NCBI GenBank assembly: GCA_013036315.1
Contig: JAAXMC010000124.1
Location: forward strand, 1 to 34,328
Source: Vulcanimicrobiota bacterium
GTDB lineage: Bacteria > Vulcanimicrobiota > Vulcanimicrobiia > Vulcanimicrobiales > Vulcanimicrobiaceae
Direction: 5' to 3'
Length of the DNA: 34,328 nucleotides
A program made the translations under genes and the position numbers. This document shows positions 26,667 to 34,328 of the stretch, one piece after another. The notes beneath the pieces were generated by a model. The model made no database searches. It worked only from the letters and a program-made list of their open reading frames with translations, and was not told the DNA's origin. Every line of letters starts with the position of its first letter. The first letter of the stretch is position 1.

Positions 26667-27641
26667 ATGCAGGCGGCGCGTTTACACGAAACCGGCGGTC
26701 CCGATAAGGTCCGGCTCGAGGACGTCTCCGCGCCGGAAGCCGGTGCCGGCGAGACCATCGTCCGAGTCCACGCCGCGGCGCTGAACCACCGCGACGTCTT
26801 CATCACGCGCGGCCTCTATCCGAATATCGTCCTGCCTCGCACCCTCGGCGCTGATTGCTGCGGCGAAGCCGGCGGCGCGGAAGTGGTCGTCGACCCGACG
26901 ATCGGCTGGGGCGGCGATGAGCGAGTCTGGAAACCCGACGCTACGATTTTGGGCGTGCCGCTCGACGGCACGTTCGCGGAGTTCGTGGTGGTCCCACAAG
27001 AAAACGTGCATTCCAAACCGGAGCACCTTTCGGTTGAAGAAGCCGCCGCACTGCCGCTCGGTGGGGTGACCGCGTACCGCGCGATGTTTGTTCGGGGAAA
27101 ATTACAAGCCGGCGAAACCGTGCTGATCACCGGCGTCGGCGGCGGCGTGCAAACGTTCGCGCTGCTGTACGCCAAGGCTGCCGGCGCGCGCACCGTCGTA
27201 ACGTCGAGCCGCGATGGAAAGCTCGAGCGCGCCAAAGCGCTCGGCGCCGACGTCGCGATAAACTACGCGACGACACCCGATTGGCACAAAGCGGTGAAAG
27301 CGGCGGTCGGCGCGGTCGATCTCGCGATCGATTCGGCCGGCGGTGATTCGTTCGCGAAAGCGTTAAGCGTTGTGCGCCCCGGCGGCCGCGCCGTCACTTA
27401 CGGCGGCACGAGCGGCGACACGTCGCTCAAAATGTTTCCGATCTTCTGGCATCAGCTCTCGATATTCGGAACGTCGATGGGAAGCCCGGCGGATTTTAAA
27501 GCGATGCTCGCTTTCGTTTCGCAGCACCGCATCAAACCTATTGTGGATCGCGTCTATGAACTGTCGGAGATCAAAAGCGCGATGCAGCGCATGGACGATG
27601 CGCTGCAGTTCGGAAAGATTGTGTTGCGAATTCCTCAATGA
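26667..27641 (+). CDS. Zinc-free quinone oxidoreductase/MDR-family alcohol dehydrogenase
   Basis: This 324-residue medium-chain dehydrogenase/reductase starts MQAARLHETGGPDKVRLEDV. Its GroES-like half reads VRVHAAALNHRDVFITRG and LGADCCGE. The Rossmann half reads EEAAALPLGGVTAYRAMF, GETVLITGVGGGVQTFALLYAKAAGA, VVTSSRDGKLERAKALGADVAINY and FGKIVLRI. The structural-zinc cysteine cluster is absent, and NHRD replaces the catalytic-zinc histidine pattern, so it fits NADPH:quinone reductases. It would reduce quinones or enones with NAD(P)H in the cytosol. The frame is open back to 26580, but family similarity begins at ATG 26667. AAGG lies about 8 nt before that ATG. Confidence 0.88.
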   Translation: MQAARLHETGGPDKVRLEDVSAPEAGAGETIVRVHAAALNHRDVFITRGLYPNIVLPRTLGADCCGEAGGAEVVVDPTIGWGGDERVWKPDATILGVPLDGTFAEFVVVPQENVHSKPEHLSVEEAAALPLGGVTAYRAMFVRGKLQAGETVLITGVGGGVQTFALLYAKAAGARTVVTSSRDGKLERAKALGADVAINYATTPDWHKAVKAAVGAVDLAIDSAGGDSFAKALSVVRPGGRAVTYGGTSGDTSLKMFPIFWHQLSIFGTSMGSPADFKAMLAFVSQHRIKPIVDRVYELSEIKSAMQRMDDALQFGKIVLRIPQ

Positions 27642-27644
27642 GAA

Positions 27645-27791
27645 CGCGCTGCCAGGTCCCATTTCGCTTGGCCCCGGTCTCGCTCCGACATCCGGGTCTC
27701 CGCTCGCCCTGCCTCTTCAGGCCGCTCTCGCCATCCATGGCTCCGCGGCTGAATTCACACGACCTGCGCTGAAACGGGACCTGGCAGCGCG
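27645..27791. repeat. 147-bp element bounded by inverted repeats
   Basis: CGCGCTGCCAGGTCCC at 27645-27660 is exactly complementary to GGGACCTGGCAGCGCG at 27776-27791. Pairing continues inward for five more bases with one mismatch (ATTTC/GTTTC), giving 20 of 21 matched. The 105-bp interior contains no plausible gene. The element fills the gap between the convergent ends of the oxidoreductase and MBL genes. It could be a small non-autonomous mobile element or repeat, or a long structured terminator. No second copy is in the window. Confidence 0.8.
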
Positions 27792-27804
27792 CCCTCATTC
27801 GGAA

Positions 27805-28716
27805 TTAGCGGATGAGAGTGTAGACGCGCAGTCGATCGATCCGGAGATCGGCGCCGAGTTCTTCCTCTACGATAGCTGCATGCTCGGGGCCGACGACGGT
27901 GCTCCATGGCGGGTTGAGCAGCGCTTCGTCTCGCGGTTCCAGCGGTGTTTTCATTTCGCGCGAGCGCACGCGCCCTTCGCGTTCGAGCGCGATCAAATAA
28001 GCGAGGATTTGCCGCGCCGCGGCGGCCCAAAGCTTGGGATCGGCGCGGGCGTAAATTGAGCGCACGAGTTCGGGGACCGTACGTTCGCCGTTTTTCAAAG
28101 CGCCGACGATCTCCAGTTCGCGAACGCGACGGTGCTCCAAGTATTCGTCCAGCTTGGCGCGCGGGTCGCGCACCGGTTCGCCGTGTCCGCCGTAAATCGT
28201 TTGCGCTTGCGCGAACTCTGCGCGCAGGCGTTGCAACGTGCGCACGTAGGCGCGCATGTCGCCGTCGGGCGGCGCGACCACGACGTACCCTTCACCCAAG
28301 ACGACGTCGCCGGTGAAGAGCGCTCGCTCGCTGCCCTCATAGAAGACCACGTGATCGGAGGAATGTCCGGGCGCGGCGATCGTTTGCAGCACAACGTTGC
28401 CGGTGGCAATCGTATCGCCGTCATGCAGGGCGCGATCGTGAGCGATGCCGCTACTCGCTGCCGCGGCAACTTTTGCGCCGGTGTGCGCGCGCAGGAGCGC
28501 CGCTGCTGGAGCGTGGTCGGGATGTCCGTGCGTCAGGCAAATCCATACAAGGCGCGAATTGGTGCGGGCACATTCGGCAACGAGGGTGTCGACGTGCGTC
28601 TCAATCGCCGGACCCGGATCGATGCAGATTGCCTCGCCGTTGCCGCAGTCGATAACGTACGAATTCGTGCCGGTCAACGTCATCGGCGATGGATTCGGAG
28701 CGCGGACCAGCGTCAC
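27805..28716 (-). CDS. MBL-fold metallo-hydrolase (LACTB2-like)
   Basis: This is a 303-residue metallo-beta-lactamase-fold protein. After the N-terminal SPMTLTGTNSYVID comes the metal-binding HxHxDH motif as THGHPDHAPAA (H63, H65, D67, H68). Then come APGHSSDHVVFY (H), LFTGDVVLGEGYVVV (D) and a late IYGGHGEPVRDPRAKLDEYLEHRRVREL (H). The C-terminal ~90 residues form the winged-helix extension typical of LACTB2-like members (ELVRSIYARADPKLWAAAARQILAYLIALEREGRV). LACTB2-like proteins include an RNA endonuclease, while others hydrolyse esters; the substrate here is unknown. The start GTG at 28716 overlaps the NUDIX stop (GTGA); a GTG at 28719 is an equal choice. A longer reading to 28923 lacks similarity. 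Confidence 0.88.
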   Translation of the reverse strand: MTLVRAPNPSPMTLTGTNSYVIDCGNGEAICIDPGPAIETHVDTLVAECARTNSRLVWICLTHGHPDHAPAAALLRAHTGAKVAAAASSGIAHDRALHDGDTIATGNVVLQTIAAPGHSSDHVVFYEGSERALFTGDVVLGEGYVVVAPPDGDMRAYVRTLQRLRAEFAQAQTIYGGHGEPVRDPRAKLDEYLEHRRVRELEIVGALKNGERTVPELVRSIYARADPKLWAAAARQILAYLIALEREGRVRSREMKTPLEPRDEALLNPPWSTVVGPEHAAIVEEELGADLRIDRLRVYTLIR

Positions 28717-29465
28717 CACGCGTCTTCCAATGCGGGCGGCAGCGCAAACCCGTTCTCTACGGCATCGGGCGTCAGCGCGAGAATCGGCTTGGTGCGCGCG
28801 AACTCCAGGAGATCGTCGACGTTCGCAAAGGCCGCGAGCCTTTGCAAGTGTTTGATCGTGGGATAGACGAGATGAAGGTCGCCCGCGGCGTTGCGCGCGA
28901 GCGCGTCGGCGGGCGAGATCCATAAACCGTCATGCGTTTCGTGGGCATCGGCGGCTGCGACCGCATCGGGCAGTGCGCGCGCCAGAAAAAAATGCGTATT
29001 GTAGCGATCCGGAAATTGGGCCGGCGTGAGCCACTGCGAAAAAAACGTCAGCGCGCGCGCGTCGGCATACAGGTCGCGCGTCTCCAACAGCTCGAGAAAA
29101 TCCGAGCGCGATTCCGGGGCGCTTCCGGCGACCGCTTCGCCGCGCGCATCGCGCGCGAGCAGCACGCCGGCCTCCTCAAATAATTCGCGCAAAGCTGCGA
29201 ACAAGAGCCCGGCCGCCTCGCGCTTGGTCGCCAGCGGCACGGCTGCCGCCGGGGCGGCTTCCGCTCTGAACTGCGCGTCGATGTCGTGCGGCGAAATGCG
29301 CATGCGTGCGAGCGCGCGCTCGCTTAGATCGGTTTCCGAGACGGTCCCGCCGGGAAAAACATAGGCGTCAGGAACGAAATGACTGCTTTGACTTCGCCGC
29401 AGCATGAACACTTCAAAGCGAGCGCCCGCCGGACGAACCAGCATTACGGTGGCGGCTAAACGCAC
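28713..29465 (-). CDS. NUDIX hydrolase (NUDT19-like)
   Basis: This 250-residue protein begins LAATVMLVRPAGARFEVFMLRRSQSSHFVPDAYVFPGGTVSETD. The Nudix box half RELFEEAGVLL is near residue 91. The glutamate that precedes it by eight positions in the classical GX5EX7REUXEEXGU box is not at that spacing. There is an insertion of about 50 residues between the PGG part and the REL part, as in NUDT19/RP2p-type enzymes. The expected reaction is hydrolysis of a nucleoside diphosphate-linked substrate, such as coenzyme A esters for NUDT19. It is cotranscribed with the MBL-fold gene (GTGA overlap). The GTG start lacks a clear ribosome binding site; an ATG seven codons further is less likely because it cuts the first beta-strand. 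Confidence 0.85.
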   Translation of the reverse strand: MRLAATVMLVRPAGARFEVFMLRRSQSSHFVPDAYVFPGGTVSETDLSERALARMRISPHDIDAQFRAEAAPAAAVPLATKREAAGLLFAALRELFEEAGVLLARDARGEAVAGSAPESRSDFLELLETRDLYADARALTFFSQWLTPAQFPDRYNTHFFLARALPDAVAAADAHETHDGLWISPADALARNAAGDLHLVYPTIKHLQRLAAFANVDDLLEFARTKPILALTPDAVENGFALPPALEDAW

Positions 29466-29501
29466 AGGGAACCCAGTTGGAAAGGGGACCGTTTCAAGTA
29501 T

Positions 29502-29924
29502 ATGAACACGCGATTTGCTTCCGGCTTTGCCGCCGTCCTTTTAGCGCTCACGTGCAGCGCGCTGGCTTTTACCGGCACCAGCGCGAACGCGGCGCCGACG
29601 CCCCCGCCCACCGCTTCACCCAATCCGCTTCCGACGCTGCCGGGCGGCATCGTAAACGACGCCATCAACGCGCTCGGCGGGATCGTCAAAGCGGCCTACG
29701 GCTGGAACGACGCGGAATCACTCGGTACCGTTACGTTTTATCGTGGCTATGACATGCAGCTGAAAATGCAGCTCAACCGGTACCGCGCGATTCATCTGCA
29801 TCGCGGCACCGTGATCAATCCGCGCGGCTACTCGATCCACGACGGCGACACGGTCGACGTCCGCGGCCGCCCGCAACCCGACGGCTCGCTCGAGGCCGAC
29901 ATGATCGTCGTACAGGGCCACTGA
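29502..29924 (+). CDS. Secreted protein of unknown function
   Basis: This 140-residue precursor has a signal peptide (NTRFASGFAAVLLALTCSALAFTGTSANA-AP), a Pro/Thr-rich linker (PTPPPTASPNPLPTLPGG) and a compact C-terminal region. That region reads VTFYRGYDMQLKMQLNRYRAIHLHRGTVINPRG, then DGDTVDVRGRPQPDGSLEADMIVV. The DGDTVDVRG-x-x-x-x-DGS-x-x-AD-x-I pattern looks like a small beta-barrel (OB/DUF5666-like), but I cannot assign it with confidence. It is probably periplasmic or cell-surface. AAAGGGGA lies upstream, though at longer than ideal distance. It is divergent from the NUDIX gene over 36 bp. Confidence 0.72.
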   Translation: MNTRFASGFAAVLLALTCSALAFTGTSANAAPTPPPTASPNPLPTLPGGIVNDAINALGGIVKAAYGWNDAESLGTVTFYRGYDMQLKMQLNRYRAIHLHRGTVINPRGYSIHDGDTVDVRGRPQPDGSLEADMIVVQGH

Positions 29925-29928
29925 GCTC

Positions 29929-29982
29929 GCTTATCGCCGGGCTCGCTTTTTCTTCTAGTTAATCGCTCGCCCGGCGATAAGC
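29929..29982. repeat. 14-bp inverted repeat between secreted-protein and RpiB-like genes
   Basis: GCTTATCGCCGGGC (29929-29942) is exactly complementary to GCCCGGCGATAAGC (29969-29982), with a 26-nt pyrimidine/T-rich spacer. It occupies the 71-bp gap and ends 13 bp before the RpiB-like ATG. A transcript could form a strong stem-loop. There is no T-run after the right arm, so it is not a standard terminator; a processing or attenuation hairpin or a short repeat element is possible. Confidence 0.65.
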
Positions 29983-29995
29983 TCGCAAGACAGCT

Positions 29996-30421
29996 ATGCG
30001 CATCGCGCTGGGAAGCGACGAATCCACCGAATTGACGGCTGCGCTCGAACGCGATTTGCGCGCGCGCGGCCACGACATTGTATTGCTTGGCGCGCTCAAA
30101 GCCGGTGACGAAGAAGCCTGGCCCAGCGTCGGCCGTCGCGTCGCTGAAGCCGTCGCCGCAAAAAGCTGTGATTACGGCGTGGTCTGCTGCTGGTCCGGAA
30201 CCGGCGTGAGCATCGCCGCCAACAAAGTGACCGGGGCGCGCGCGGCGCTTTGCAACGATTACCAAACCTCGGCGCTGGCGCGCGAATACAACGACGCCAA
30301 CGTCCTGGCTCTGAGCCTGCGTGCGACGCCTGTTTCCGAAGTGAAAGCGATATTGGATGCGTGGTTTGCCACGCAGCCGACCGCCGATCCGAAATATCGC
30401 GCCATGATCGACCAGACCTAG
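29996..30421 (+). CDS. RpiB/LacA/LacB-family sugar-phosphate isomerase
   Basis: This 141-residue protein has the family core DYGVVCCWSGTGVSIAANKVTGARAALCND, followed by TSALAREYNDANVLALSLR. In RpiB the loop is ICGTGIGMSIAANK and the ring-opening histidine lies in R-x-HNDANV. Here the loop is C-C-W-S-GTG and the histidine is Tyr. The early D-H pair of RpiB is D-E (GSDEST). It therefore belongs to the CW(S/T)GTG branch rather than to classical ribose-5-phosphate isomerase B. An aldose-ketose isomerase for some sugar phosphate is likely; the substrate is not known to me. It is preceded by an inverted repeat at 29929-29982. Confidence 0.85.
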   Translation: MRIALGSDESTELTAALERDLRARGHDIVLLGALKAGDEEAWPSVGRRVAEAVAAKSCDYGVVCCWSGTGVSIAANKVTGARAALCNDYQTSALAREYNDANVLALSLRATPVSEVKAILDAWFATQPTADPKYRAMIDQT

Positions 30422-30478
30422 CCGCGCAATCCAAACGGAGCTCCCGCCCGTTCCCTCTAGCGAAAGGAGCTTCTACAC

Positions 30479-31090
30479 GTGTTTACTTTTCGTCATATCC
30501 TCGCGGCCGTCGCGCTTTGCGCGCTCGCTGCACCGGCGGCTGCGGCCGCTTCGGGCATGGCTTCCTCCTCGAGCATGATCAAGATGGAGCCGTCTCGCTT
30601 TTCAGGTCCGGGTGTCTACACGGGACCGCCCGCATTACCCGTGACCCTTTCGCTCATCATGGCCGGCGGCGGCCCGCAGCATTTCGATACGGTGACGCTG
30701 CTCAAGGTTCTCGCCGGTAAAAACTTCAACGCCGAGGTCGCGAAGCTCACGAAACAATACGGCAAACCTAAAGTCGGGAATTTTCTGACCGTGTTCAACT
30801 TCGTGATCGCCGACTCGCTGAAAATCGTAACGGCGGCTAAAGTCAAACTGCCGTCAAAGCCCTCGCCCGATCCGAAAGACGGTAAGGCGTTGGCGGCCGC
30901 GCTTTGGAATGCCGGCGTGTTTCGCGGCGGATGGAGCGTGGAAGTGATGCTCGATCGCGCCGTTTCACATCCGGTCCACGTGCAAGTGATGAAAGACATC
31001 GACGCCAAATACGGCATCGCTAAAGATGCCGACTACCACGCCATCCTCGCGAGCGCGATGCAGGATCTCAAAGCCGCGTACATGCTGTAA
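30479..31090 (+). CDS. Secreted protein of unknown function
   Basis: This is a 203-residue precursor from GTG 30479, with AAAGGAG 9 nt upstream. The signal peptide is FTFRHILAAVALCALAAPAAAAASG. The mature part reads SLIMAGGGPQHFDTVTLLKVLAG..F-AEVAKLTKQYGK..V-FLTVFNFVIADSLKIV, then WNAGVFRGGWSVEVMLDRAVSHPVHVQVMKDIDAKYG, ending in a helical DLKAAYML. It looks mostly alpha-helical, and I do not recognise a family or any catalytic motif. It is followed within 25 nt by an intrinsic terminator. It is probably periplasmic. Confidence 0.75.
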   Translation: MFTFRHILAAVALCALAAPAAAAASGMASSSSMIKMEPSRFSGPGVYTGPPALPVTLSLIMAGGGPQHFDTVTLLKVLAGKNFNAEVAKLTKQYGKPKVGNFLTVFNFVIADSLKIVTAAKVKLPSKPSPDPKDGKALAAALWNAGVFRGGWSVEVMLDRAVSHPVHVQVMKDIDAKYGIAKDADYHAILASAMQDLKAAYML

Positions 31091-31112
31091 GCGCCTGTCG
31101 CCTAACAAGAAG

Positions 31113-31136
31113 AAAGCGTGCTCTGCACGCTTTTTT
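31113..31136 (+). terminator. Intrinsic terminator after the secreted-protein gene
   Basis: AAAGCGTGC (31113-31121) pairs with GCACGCTTT (31125-31133) around a TCT loop and ends in a run of six T (31131-31136). It follows the stop at 31090 by 22 nt. In the rest of the gap up to 31229 there is a second weaker stem (AATCCCG at 31180-31186 with CGGGATT at 31205-31211) near the end of the convergent VKOR-like gene, and no gene. Confidence 0.93.
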
Positions 31137-31229
31137 CTTATAGCACCGGCGGAAGGCTCAGCTCCCGGGCTCCGGTGAGAATCCCGGATTGCTCTCGAGA
31201 TAAGCGGGATTATACCCATGCAAGGCGCG

Positions 31230-31610
31230 TTAAACAAGCCAGGGCAAGATGAGAGCAAGCGACCAGTTGACGGCATGGGAAGTCCAGCAGTACGGACACT
31301 CTTTTTTCGTTACGAAAAGTAGGCTGTACGCCAAGTATGCGGAGGTCGCGGCGGCAAGCAGAGCCGCCGCCTCGGCGAGTACGAAGAAGATTCGCGCGTG
31401 GGCCAGCCACGTAACCGCGACGACTCCCAGGTAGTAGAGTATTCCGAACAGCGAGTTCGGCAGCCCGGCGAACAGATTTGCGCGGGGCGACTTGACGACG
31501 CTCGGCCCTTTGACCTCGCCGTGCTTGGCGCGGATGCTCTTGCGGAGCATGAAAACGGAAGCGTAAAACCCCACGGCGCATAAAAACGAAACGATGGAGC
31601 GTAGGAGCAT
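31230..31610 (-). CDS. Vitamin K epoxide reductase (VKOR)-like membrane protein lacking the loop cysteines
   Basis: This 126-residue protein has four hydrophobic helices. The VKOR motif reads SPRANLFAGLPNSLFGILYYLG, and the C-terminal redox box reads ECPYCWTSHAVN with Cys105 and Cys108. VKOR homologs pair with periplasmic thioredoxin-like proteins to make disulfides, reducing quinone through the CXXC. In typical bacterial VKORs a loop cysteine pair shuttles electrons. Here the corresponding region (KGPSVVKSPRA) has none; the only other cysteine is C11 in the first helix. Either this is a branch that works with the CXXC alone or the activity differs. No DsbA-like partner is adjacent. It is head to head with the TVP38-like gene. 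Confidence 0.82.
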   Translation of the reverse strand: MLLRSIVSFLCAVGFYASVFMLRKSIRAKHGEVKGPSVVKSPRANLFAGLPNSLFGILYYLGVVAVTWLAHARIFFVLAEAAALLAAATSAYLAYSLLFVTKKECPYCWTSHAVNWSLALILPWLV

Positions 31611-31652
31611 CCGATTACCCGTCTTAAAGCGCTAGCCCGCCGCCTGGCGGGC

Positions 31653-32279
31653 ATGGGGCTGCTGCTGGCGTCCTTTGCGCTCGCGGCGCTCGTTATCCGT
31701 TACCAGCCATACGTAGAGCATCATATCCTCCGGCCCATCGGTCCCAAGGTGGCGATTCCGCTAGCCACCGTTCTCTTCGCGCTCGTTGCATCCGCGCCGT
31801 TTTCCGTGACGGATGCCCTCGCGATCATGAACGGCGTCGTTTTCGGGCGGTTTTGGGGCTCGATCATCGACATCGTGGGCATCATCTGCGCGGCGATGAT
31901 CGGCTACTGGATCAACCGGCACGCCACCCATTTGTTGGACCTCCACAAGGCGCTCTCGAAATTGCCTGCCTGGATGAAGCGATTCCGCGTCGGCTCGCCG
32001 ATGTTCCTCATCGTCGTGCGGGTTATTCCCGGTTTCGGCGGCACCGTCGCTACCGCGACCGCGGCGGCATTCAAAGTGCCGCTTTGGATCCATGTCGTCA
32101 CGATGTCGGTCGTGGCGATTCCGCTGTGCGTCTTGCTGACGCTATTCGGCGACCAGGTGACGACGCTCGTGCACGGCGCCGAAGCGCGCGCACACATGTA
32201 CATCTTGCATCACCGCCCGCATTGGCATATCCACTTGCGGCGCCGGACGCCGCACGTACCGGCCGGCCCGACGCAATGA
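31653..32279 (+). CDS. TVP38/TMEM64 (VTT-domain) membrane protein
   Basis: This is a polytopic inner-membrane protein of 208 residues from ATG 31653. The VTT/SNARE-associated features are PFSVTDALAIMNGVVFG, a GYWINRHATHLLDLH cytoplasmic segment and VRVIPGFGGTVATATAAAFKVPLWIHVV, followed by I-P. Relatives of DedA/TVP38 are linked to lipid scrambling or transport; the substrate here is unknown. The frame is open upstream of the ATG for 16 codons and codes for ITRLKALARRLAG, a basic leader typical of the family. An ATT at 31614 has GGAG 6 nt before it, so the true start may be upstream of the ATG. The C-terminus is histidine-rich (ILHHRPHWHIHL). The stop overlaps rnd as ATGA. Confidence 0.85.
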   Translation: MGLLLASFALAALVIRYQPYVEHHILRPIGPKVAIPLATVLFALVASAPFSVTDALAIMNGVVFGRFWGSIIDIVGIICAAMIGYWINRHATHLLDLHKALSKLPAWMKRFRVGSPMFLIVVRVIPGFGGTVATATAAAFKVPLWIHVVTMSVVAIPLCVLLTLFGDQVTTLVHGAEARAHMYILHHRPHWHIHLRRRTPHVPAGPTQ

Positions 32280-33451
32280 CGAGCGTGCAAACGGTCGACA
32301 CGCTGCAAGGGTTGGAAGAACTCTGCAAGCGGCTCGCAAGTGCCGGGCGCGTTGGCGTGGACACGGAATTCCACAACGAACGAAGCTACACGGCGCGGTT
32401 GATGGTCGTGCAGATTGCTTTCGAGGGCAGCTTCGCGGTCGTCGATCCGTTGGCGTTGCCCGATTTGATGCCGCTCGCGCAGGCGCTGGCGAAAACGACC
32501 GTCGTGGGACACGCCCTTGGTAGCGACCTCAAGATTTTCGCCGACCGCTTCGGGATCGTTCCGCAACATGTTTTCGATTGTCAGATCGCGGCCGCGTTTC
32601 TGGGATACGGGCTGTCCATCTCGCTGGCCGACCTCGTGCGCGACGTGCAAGGCGTGCGTTTGAGAAAACTCCACACCGTCAGCGATTGGTCGAAACGGCC
32701 GCTTTCCGAAGGCCAACTCGAATATCTGATCGATGACGTCGCCCACTTGCTCCCGATGCACGATCAACTCACTCGCCGGCTGAAAGAGAAAAATCGTTAC
32801 GAGTGGGCGCTGGAAGAGTGCCGGCAACTTGCGGATCTCAATCGATACCGCGTCGACGAACGGCGCCTGTACGCGCGCATTCCCGGCGCGAACCGCATGA
32901 ACCGCCGCGAACTGGCCGTCCTTTCGGAGCTAGCGGTCATGCGCGACCGCCTCGCGCGCGAACGCGACGTTCCGCTGAAATACGTCATGCCCGACGACGT
33001 GCTGGCAGGTCTTGCAACGCTGCGGCCGCACCGTCTCGAGGAGTTGACGCAGCTGCGCAGATTAGATGCGGGCGGCCGCCGCGCGCTCGGGCCGGCAATT
33101 CTCGAAGCCGCGAAACGTGCCGAGGCGCTGCCGGAAGATGAGTTGCCTCCGCGGTTGAGCCGGCCGCTCGGCAACGCGCGCGAAACGCTGGTGGCGCTGA
33201 TGAGCGTGCTGGTCGGCGAAATCGCGCGCGAGAATGAGGTTCCGTCGAGTTTGTTGGCGCCGCGGGCGGCCCTGGAGCGCGTCGCGCGCGAACTGCCGTC
33301 CGATCGCGAGGCTTTTGCGCGGGCGCTCGATCTCACGCCGTGGCGCACGCATCTGGTCGCCGAGCGTTTGTGGCAACTGCTTTCGGGCGAGGCCGCGCTG
33401 CGCATCGAAGGCTATGCGGGCGGCGATCCGCGAATCCTCTTGCAATCGTGA
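32276..33451 (+). CDS. rnd: Ribonuclease D
   Basis: This 391-residue 3'-5' exoribonuclease of the DEDDy class has Exo I VDTEFH (Asp29, Glu31), Exo [13 protein letters not shown] (Asp84) and Exo III YLIDD (Tyr150, Asp154). An HRDC domain follows at about residues 210-290 ([36 protein letters not shown]). RNase D trims the 3' ends of tRNA and other stable RNA precursors in the cytosol. ATG 32276 overlaps the TVP38-like stop (ATGA). A longer frame running back to 31853 is only antisense-like filler within that gene. The TGA overlaps the acnA start codon (GTGA), so the three genes form one operon. Confidence 0.93.
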
Positions 33452-34328
33452 TTCAATACGCCGGCAGCTTCAAGGCTCTCGACCGCCTGCCCGTCGGCGA
33501 TCGTGCTTACTCGTATATAAGTCTTGCGGCGCTCCAGGACGCGGGCATCGCAAATCTTGCCCAGCTCCCGTTTTCCCTAAAGATTTTGCTCGAGAATTTG
33601 CTGCGCTTCGAAGACGGCGTCTCGGTGGAGCGCGCCGATGTGGAAGCGCTGGCGCGCTGGCACCCGAGCCGGCGAAGCGATCGCGAGATCGCATTCCGTC
33701 CCGCGCGCGTTTTGCTGCAAGATTTTACGGGCGTTCCGGCGGTCGTCGACCTGGCCGCGATGCGCGATGCGATGGCCGAGATGGGCGGAGATCCCAAAGC
33801 GATCAATCCGCTGCAGCCCGTCGAGCTGGTAATCGATCACTCGGTCCAAGTCGACGCGTTTGGATCGAGCAAAGCTTTTGCGGAAAACGCGCGCCTGGAG
33901 TTCGCGCGCAACCGCGAGCGTTACGCCTTCTTGAAATGGGGACAGGAGTCGCTGGTTAATTTCCGCGCCGTTCCGCCGGATACCGGAATCGTGCATCAGG
34001 TGAACATCGAGTTCCTGGCTCGAGTCGTTTTCGGAGCTGGTGGAGCTGGGATCGATGGTGGTGAGTCCGCCCTCACTAAAGCTCAGGTTAATCGTTCGGG
34101 CGGACCCACCACCATCGATCCACTGGCATATCCCGATACCGTTGTCGGTACGGACTCGCATACCACGATGGTCAACGGTTTGGGTGTGCTGGCGTGGGGC
34201 GTGGGCGGAATCGAAGCCGAAGCTGCGATGCTCGGGCAGCCGATCACGATGTTGATTCCCGACGTTATCGGTTTCCGGCTGGAGGGAAAGCTCAAGCCCG
34301 GAGTTACCGCGACCGATTTGGTTTTGAC
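33448..34328 (+). CDS. acnA: Aconitate hydratase A, N-terminal part
   Basis: The gene begins with GTG 33448, overlapping the RNase D stop, and runs off the window end after 293 codons. It reads as Acn[111 protein letters not shown] and [13 protein letters not shown]. The enzyme isomerises citrate to isocitrate in the TCA cycle. The cluster-ligand cysteines lie beyond the window. Between ARVVF and AYPDT there are 31 residues ([10 protein letters not shown]...TTIDPL) where E. coli AcnA and B. subtilis CitB have about nine. The extra segment is encoded by a 73-bp palindrome (34049-34121). Confidence 0.95.
34049..34121. repeat. In-frame palindromic element inside acnA
   Basis: The arms at 34049-34072 and 34098-34121 are inverted copies matching at 23 of 24 positions; the only mismatch is base 34064. 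The 25-bp spacer is 34073-34097. Arm cores read GATCGATGGTGGTGA and its complement TCACCACCATCGATC (CCCACCACC in the right arm). The frame is preserved. The encoded peptide is [25 protein letters not shown]. The size and position fit an insertion into a surface loop just before the YPDT segment. Confidence 0.8.

Follow-up and report, generated by a model that had tools for sequence, protein, structure and literature searches.

The window analysed here, a 34,328-nt stretch of contig C124 from a 1.67-Mb genome (G000) that is 57% complete, ends within acnA, the gene for aconitase. The encoded protein matches the Pfam Aconitase family (E 6e-62), and its reading frame stays open through a palindrome in the gene. 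The preliminary description of this palindrome as a 73-bp inverted repeat with 24-bp arms and 23 matches was confirmed by arm comparison: the two 24-nt arms are 96% complementary and enclose a 25-nt spacer (Table 1). It is the sole site in the window at which 24-nt arms separated by 3–60 nt match at 23 or more positions, and the best arms in 20 of 20 dinucleotide shuffles of the window matched at 17–20 of 24. A covariance-model match covers positions 34059–34111 (E 2e-10). Folded as RNA, the 73 bases are predicted to reach −53.7 kcal/mol on the minus strand and −48.5 kcal/mol on the plus strand, the shuffle means being −21.7 and −20.7 kcal/mol, respectively. The single mismatch is an A·C-type cell (G·U on the other strand) at stem position 9, which is mismatched in the same way in 15 of 51 compiled copies.

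Table 1 Features of the window, with positions counted from its first base.
Feature	Position	Strand	Evidence and remarks
5′ part of acnA (aconitase), which continues beyond the window	33448..34328	+	Open frame; Pfam PF00330; IRP1 homology
Hairpin element within acnA	34049..34121	− (orientation with family covariation and G-U wobbles)	Arms, covariation, model match, fold
Left arm	34049..34072		Outer ~10 bp resemble host acnA of the element-free G001 allele
Core, 25 nt	34073..34097	−	GA, 2 pairs, loop starting GATTAA, 2 pairs, GA
Right arm	34098..34121		Outer ~10 bp are an inverted copy of the left outer arm; absent from G001
Second copy, intergenic, just upstream of rpiB-like gene (29996)	29925..29988	−	Model match 29929–29982, E 1e-11

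The element itself encodes about 24 residues, and 31 residues lie between the ARVVF and AYPDT segments of the window AcnA. We compared the length of the HQVN..SH segment over 46 AcnA loci, one genome being present with two loci. It spans 56 aa in the window AcnA and in genome G003, 63 aa in genome G004, and 30–42 aa in the remaining 43 loci, 27 of which have 39–40 aa. The preliminary description had put the addition at about 22 residues. An insertion in frame is what we find, but compared with the loop typical of the family it adds about 16–17 residues net and not 22, because the typical segment already has 39–40 aa as against 56. Human IRP1 (2b3x) is shorter than the window AcnA at the loop. 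An AlphaFold2 model of the G003 AcnA built from 21 sequences had a mean pLDDT of 50.7, with the loop region below 50, and was too poor for use.

Site occupancy was compared among seven same-genus genomes over the syntenic stretch 27000–34328. The acnA site is filled in three of the seven (G000, G003, and G004) and empty in G001, G002, G005, and G006. This occupancy is discordant with the tree and requires repeated loss, transfer, or parallel gain. The second window copy is filled in G000, is present in G002 with other arms and at an offset, and is empty in G001, G003, G004, G005, and G006, where G001 is the closest relative (91.0% identity). The same stretch holds a different repeat at 27637–27799, with 29-nt inverted ends that are 90% complementary and 105 nt apart. 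Its middle has 90–95% matches at two other places in G000 and also at places in G001 and G003–G006, and it fills the interval that contains the hairpin element in G002, G004, G005, and G006.

An old protein loop of variable length that bears a palindrome by chance would fit the variation among relatives, whose segment ranges from 30 to 42 aa. Against this reading, and against an assembly artefact, none of the 20 shuffles came near the observed arms, the same core recurs elsewhere, and the same insertion is found in two other genomes; we regard both as having next to no probability. An artefact in particular is unlikely because G003 and G004 carry the element at the same acnA site. The pattern by which an old loop was to be recognized, namely erosion of the palindrome in all relatives together with a lack of further copies, is not what acnA shows.

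The acnA element matches the DNA at the same site in G003 (88%) and G004 (81%). The pair 34059/34111 is T-A in G000 and C-G in G003, and the bases that differ at 34064 and 34103 still form standard pairs, or G·U on the minus strand, with their partners. Fourfold sites are identical across the three carriers at 8 of 9 positions within the element versus 43 of 130 outside (Fisher p 0.0014), a conservation that reflects either a constraint at the nucleotide level or movement of the element between species after they had split. The element-free acnA of G001 has a sequence like the outer left arm and none like the outer right arm, which suggests that the outer right arm is an inverted copy of the host flank. 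Host flanks outside the unit were also compared at copies elsewhere: in genome G076 they show a complementarity reached by 0 of 301 re-paired derangements (18 copies), and in G099/G015, where the effect is not clear, 39 of 301 derangements were as high (19 copies).

Weaker matches to the acnA element elsewhere in G003 share its centre only; these places are hairpins whose arms differ while the loop core stays the same. The family unit is a hairpin of about 55–75 nt with a stem of about 14 bp that is longer in many copies; measured stems range from 12 to 36 bp. On the folded strand, the stem leads to a GA/GA step, after which two base pairs close a loop of 16–18 nt starting GATTAA. The symmetrical GA/GA step we take, from its sequence, to be a tandem sheared G·A motif. 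Common to the copies is a core of about 25 nt, while the stem sequences differ yet stay paired. In 35 of the 93 examined copies, the unit is flanked by a second GAG on both its sides; taken singly, the sides have it in 51 and 50 of the 93 (background 20–25%).

We compiled 51 hairpins, of which 46 were aligned in the folded orientation, and R1 was built from those 46. Standard pairs make up 97.0% of 736 cells in this alignment, and 206 cells have changed on both sides. No shuffle of 500 reached the paired fraction or the double-change count, and structures slid along the alignment were 32–39% paired; the shuffles overstate the significance because the copies are related by descent, which leaves the slide control unaffected. 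Double changes occur at 14 of 16 pair positions, a number equalled by 91 of the 500 shuffles.

The preliminary description raised a possible effect of a folded mRNA hairpin on acnA translation. The fold conserved across the family is that of the strand antisense to acnA, although the mRNA strand folds too. The commonest non-Watson–Crick arm cells on the acnA strand are A·C and C·A, that is, G·U on the opposite strand. Among the 1302 cells of the 93 copies, the antisense strand has 72 G·U versus 9 A·C (57 versus 9 without stem position 9), where the cells are non-independent and the finder favors G·U. The earlier table of 51 hairpins, whose finder was biased against such a result, gave 61 versus 6. 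In the set of 93 copies, the excess comes from genus g1 (43 versus 2) and a mixed group (17 versus 0); the counts are 6 versus 1 in g47 and 3 versus 3 in each of g10 and g25. One polarity of a single strand thus seems to be constrained, as judged from the G·U bias on the antisense strand.

A search of the source genome and its relatives for further copies, proposed in the preliminary description, found them in both. The covariance model has 4–15 matches in each of the seven same-genus genomes, and the core pattern occurs in all seven, 5 to 14 times each (reversed-pattern control, 0–2 per strand). Across the phylum (Candidatus Eremiobacterota), a search with strict filters, in which many genomes were incomplete, returned matches in 22 of 149 genomes at 1–20 per genome. 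All 22 carriers belong to one family and to five of 70 genera, with a patchy presence exemplified by 6 of 18 genomes in genus g47. An exact core pattern was found in 10 of 116 genomes of the class, and a narrow exact core pattern run across the species collection hit five stretches, all from Eremiobacterota. A viral carrier was considered and set aside, as one core pattern had no exact match in viral contigs.

Genome G076 has about twenty similar copies at different places, roughly 80–98% alike over about 55–75 bp, with a unit of about 62 bp; their similarity suggests a fairly recent spread. For the most part their flanks are unrelated; related flanks occur in pairs that are orthologous or lie at contig ends (L225/L228, L202/L203, L201/L204, L224/L233, and L206/L212). 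Divergent pairs of copies about 100 bp apart occur in G000, G001, G003, G076, and G077, and same-direction pairs in G000, G004, and G099. Several single loci are recorded here as observations. Two 14-bp matches occur in G000 (L003, L004, L018, and L019). One copy in G003 lies between two tRNA genes (L131, C1, 1007843–1007896), and one in G006 with other inner arms follows a similar tRNA-end sequence (L075). Locus L232 (G089, C51) holds four or more hairpins of alternating orientation over about 700 bp, within longer direct repeats. The loops of L078, L085, L178 (G000, C99), L229 (G076), and L121 (G006) are enlarged by a sequence resembling CTTCGACTTCGCTCAGGA, which may be a further repeat that has entered the hairpin loop.

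Copies less than 250 bases from a locus end, those in acnA among them, were excluded from the set of 93. Thirteen of the 93 lie inside called genes, and in six of these calls (L177, L214, L217, L224, L233, and L161) one side shows little coding signal. The firm intragenic cases are an M56 peptidase gene (G000, G001, G003, and G004) and carB, both in frame. In G002 and G005, the M56 gene encodes an altered HRSG peptide at a place with no model match, and copies can therefore erode; the start motif used by the script for this peptide comparison missed the G004 gene. Coding signal on both sides of the copy was also seen in a 745-aa MBOAT protein (G087) and a 265-aa open reading frame (G099). Elsewhere the element forms an end of a protein: the N terminus of QueA in G000 (L177, C65, 1987–2062) and, by eye, likewise in G004 (L114), and the C terminus of a Rieske oxygenase in G076 and G077 (Pfam was run on the G076 protein). 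The loop of the queA copies carries ATG GTT AAT CGC TCG (L177 and L114), and the ATG in this hairpin loop may be the start codon of QueA. The copies in acnA, the M56 gene, carB, queA, and the oxygenase gene share one reading frame, giving ..VNRS or a variant, and those in the MBOAT gene and the 265-aa frame are not read in it. For the 80 intergenic copies, neighboring genes are co-directional with the copy on the same strand (18) or the opposite strand (28), convergent (18), or divergent (15). This mixed orientation to genes speaks against a transcription terminator or a sense mRNA element, and both readings were rejected on it.

A pair of carB alleles differs by the presence of the hairpin. 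The carB fragment on contig C316 of G099 has about 34 residues that are missing from seven of seven aligned homologues of other genomes. A second allele in the same bin, on C288, is near-identical and differs there by exactly 57 nt (19 codons). The 6-bp sequence CGCTCG stands on both sides of the hairpin in C316 and once in C288, and the 57-nt difference consists of the hairpin plus one copy of this flanking direct repeat. The difference can be read in two ways, as an exact insertion accompanied by a 6-bp direct repeat or as an exact loss of the sequence between two direct repeats. The C288 fragment, although binned with G099, may derive from a different, related strain. The alignment has a further small length difference upstream; C288 keeps residues that are missing from G015, perhaps a remnant of an older copy. 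An exact direct repeat at the ends, such as a target-site duplication would leave, was found in the carB pair only, and a scan of the copies, blind to a repeat common to all of them, brought out no direct repeat specific to single copies.

Could palindromes be kept perfect by a mutational process such as template switching or hairpin-templated correction, with no mobile unit at all? The arms do change yet stay paired, and the outer right arm in acnA copies the left flank; correction of this hairpin-templated type is discussed for other coding palindromes in a section of PMC6649704, which describes inverted repeats in nematomorph mitochondrial genes that are kept paired and whose arms encode conserved residues of the genes. 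Unlike those palindromes, the present family has a shared core inserted at many loci. A core of about 25 nt at dozens of unrelated places and an exact 57-nt presence/absence need a sequence that moves, and counts of 72 G-U against 9 A-C are not expected from a process that treats both strands alike. We consider this explanation, taken by itself, very unlikely; mutational correction may act in addition to a mobile element.

Most known cases of palindromes inserted in frame into housekeeping enzymes come from Rickettsia and from some REP families. Rickettsia palindromic elements (RPEs) are described, in portions of PMC2229807 and PMC10969869, as hairpin repeats that lie between genes and are also fused in frame into unrelated protein genes, with the mobilizer unknown; passages in PMC3733652 give their length as 105–146 or about 150 bp, with some ending in CGTC, and in PMC6649704 they are said to lose their repeat identity over time. 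The likeness to RPEs put forward in the preliminary description is supported for behavior: copies are dispersed, empty sites exist, and unrelated genes carry copies in frame, namely acnA, the M56 peptidase gene, and carB, with the ends of queA and the Rieske oxygenase gene formed by the element. Compared by description only, the present element is shorter than the 105–150 bp of RPEs, at about 55–75 nt (73 bp in acnA and 57 nt in carB). It also differs from them in being untagged, in belonging to another phylum, and in that most copies stay paired through change. The YPAL and RU-2 MITEs are, in the relevant part of PMC2229807, non-autonomous, with empty and filled sites, targets near dyad symmetry, and translated fusions. 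Empty and filled sites, targets near dyad symmetry, and translated fusions are shared by our family, which is probably non-autonomous too and in which, unlike bacterial MITEs, no terminal repeats of a known transposon were identified.

Membership in one of the REP superfamilies, with movement by a RAYT (Y1) transposase, would agree with the hairpins, the divergent pairs, and the presence of both intergenic and intragenic copies. Portions of PMC3733652 describe GTAG- and CGTC-tagged REPs as short hairpins in divergent pairs, with G-T stem pairs and some intragenic copies, and mention CGTC-type REPs without a known transposase. The present stems of 12–36 bp are longer than the usual 6–9 bp and carry a conserved loop of 16–18 nt. 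Within 40 nt of the core, GTAG was not enriched (8/93 left and 3/93 right; background 6.8%), nor was CGTC (12/93 and 11/93; background 24%). Y1_Tnp (PF01797) was found in 4 of 99 genomes of the family and in 0 of the 22 carriers, many of these genomes being incomplete. With neither tag enriched and no Y1 transposase match in the carriers, we rejected this assignment as highly improbable. Known RNA families were rejected as well: Rfam 15 gave two tRNAs only at gathering scores over 20 loci and no family for the element, and a relaxed threshold at eight loci gave overlaps with the element below gathering, the best being mir-7940 (E 0.0066).

Taken together, the palindrome in acnA is probably a copy of a non-autonomous, dispersed palindromic mobile element that acts like an RPE and forms a new family. 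Dispersed copies, presence and absence at sites, in-frame copies, pairing maintained through two-sided change, and the wobble polarity speak for this. On the other side, no mobilizing enzyme was found, Y1_Tnp being missing in the 22 carriers, and the pairing and fourfold conservation at the acnA site exceed what a decaying selfish copy needs; the M56 copies in G002 and G005, however, are eroded. Those features of acnA, together with the covariation and the one-strand wobble polarity, could instead point to a structured RNA or protein-binding hairpin useful to the host, selected at its sites and read antisense to acnA, with spread as its origin only. That reading is unlikely given the mixed orientation (18 same, 28 opposite), the patchy presence, the eroded M56 copies, and the lack of an Rfam family, though it deserves more weight than the mutational one.

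The hairpin sits mostly between genes and at times within them, where it survives if the frame stays open; the acnA copy is translated into about 24 residues of a loop whose length varies. It would be moved in trans by an enzyme that recognizes a folded single strand, either ssDNA or RNA, and in acnA host flank would have been copied inverted into the outer arms; we would expect a neutral or mildly harmful effect on aconitase. More tentatively, and with some doubt, the family may represent selfish hairpins of a new class, mobile as a folded single strand of one polarity (ssDNA or RNA). An enzyme would recognize the tandem G-A steps and the GATTAA loop, insertion would occur at CGAGCG-like sites or together with inverted copies of the target flank, and the arms would be kept paired during turnover. 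Among the literature matches listed, none carries a title on a palindromic element of this kind in Eremiobacterota/WPS-2. In-frame palindromic insertion in housekeeping enzymes is now placed in a little-cultured phylum, in a family young enough for an exact 57-nt difference in carB and structured enough to reveal its folding strand. The agent that moves untagged palindromes and the tolerance that conserved enzymes show toward them thereby become testable questions.
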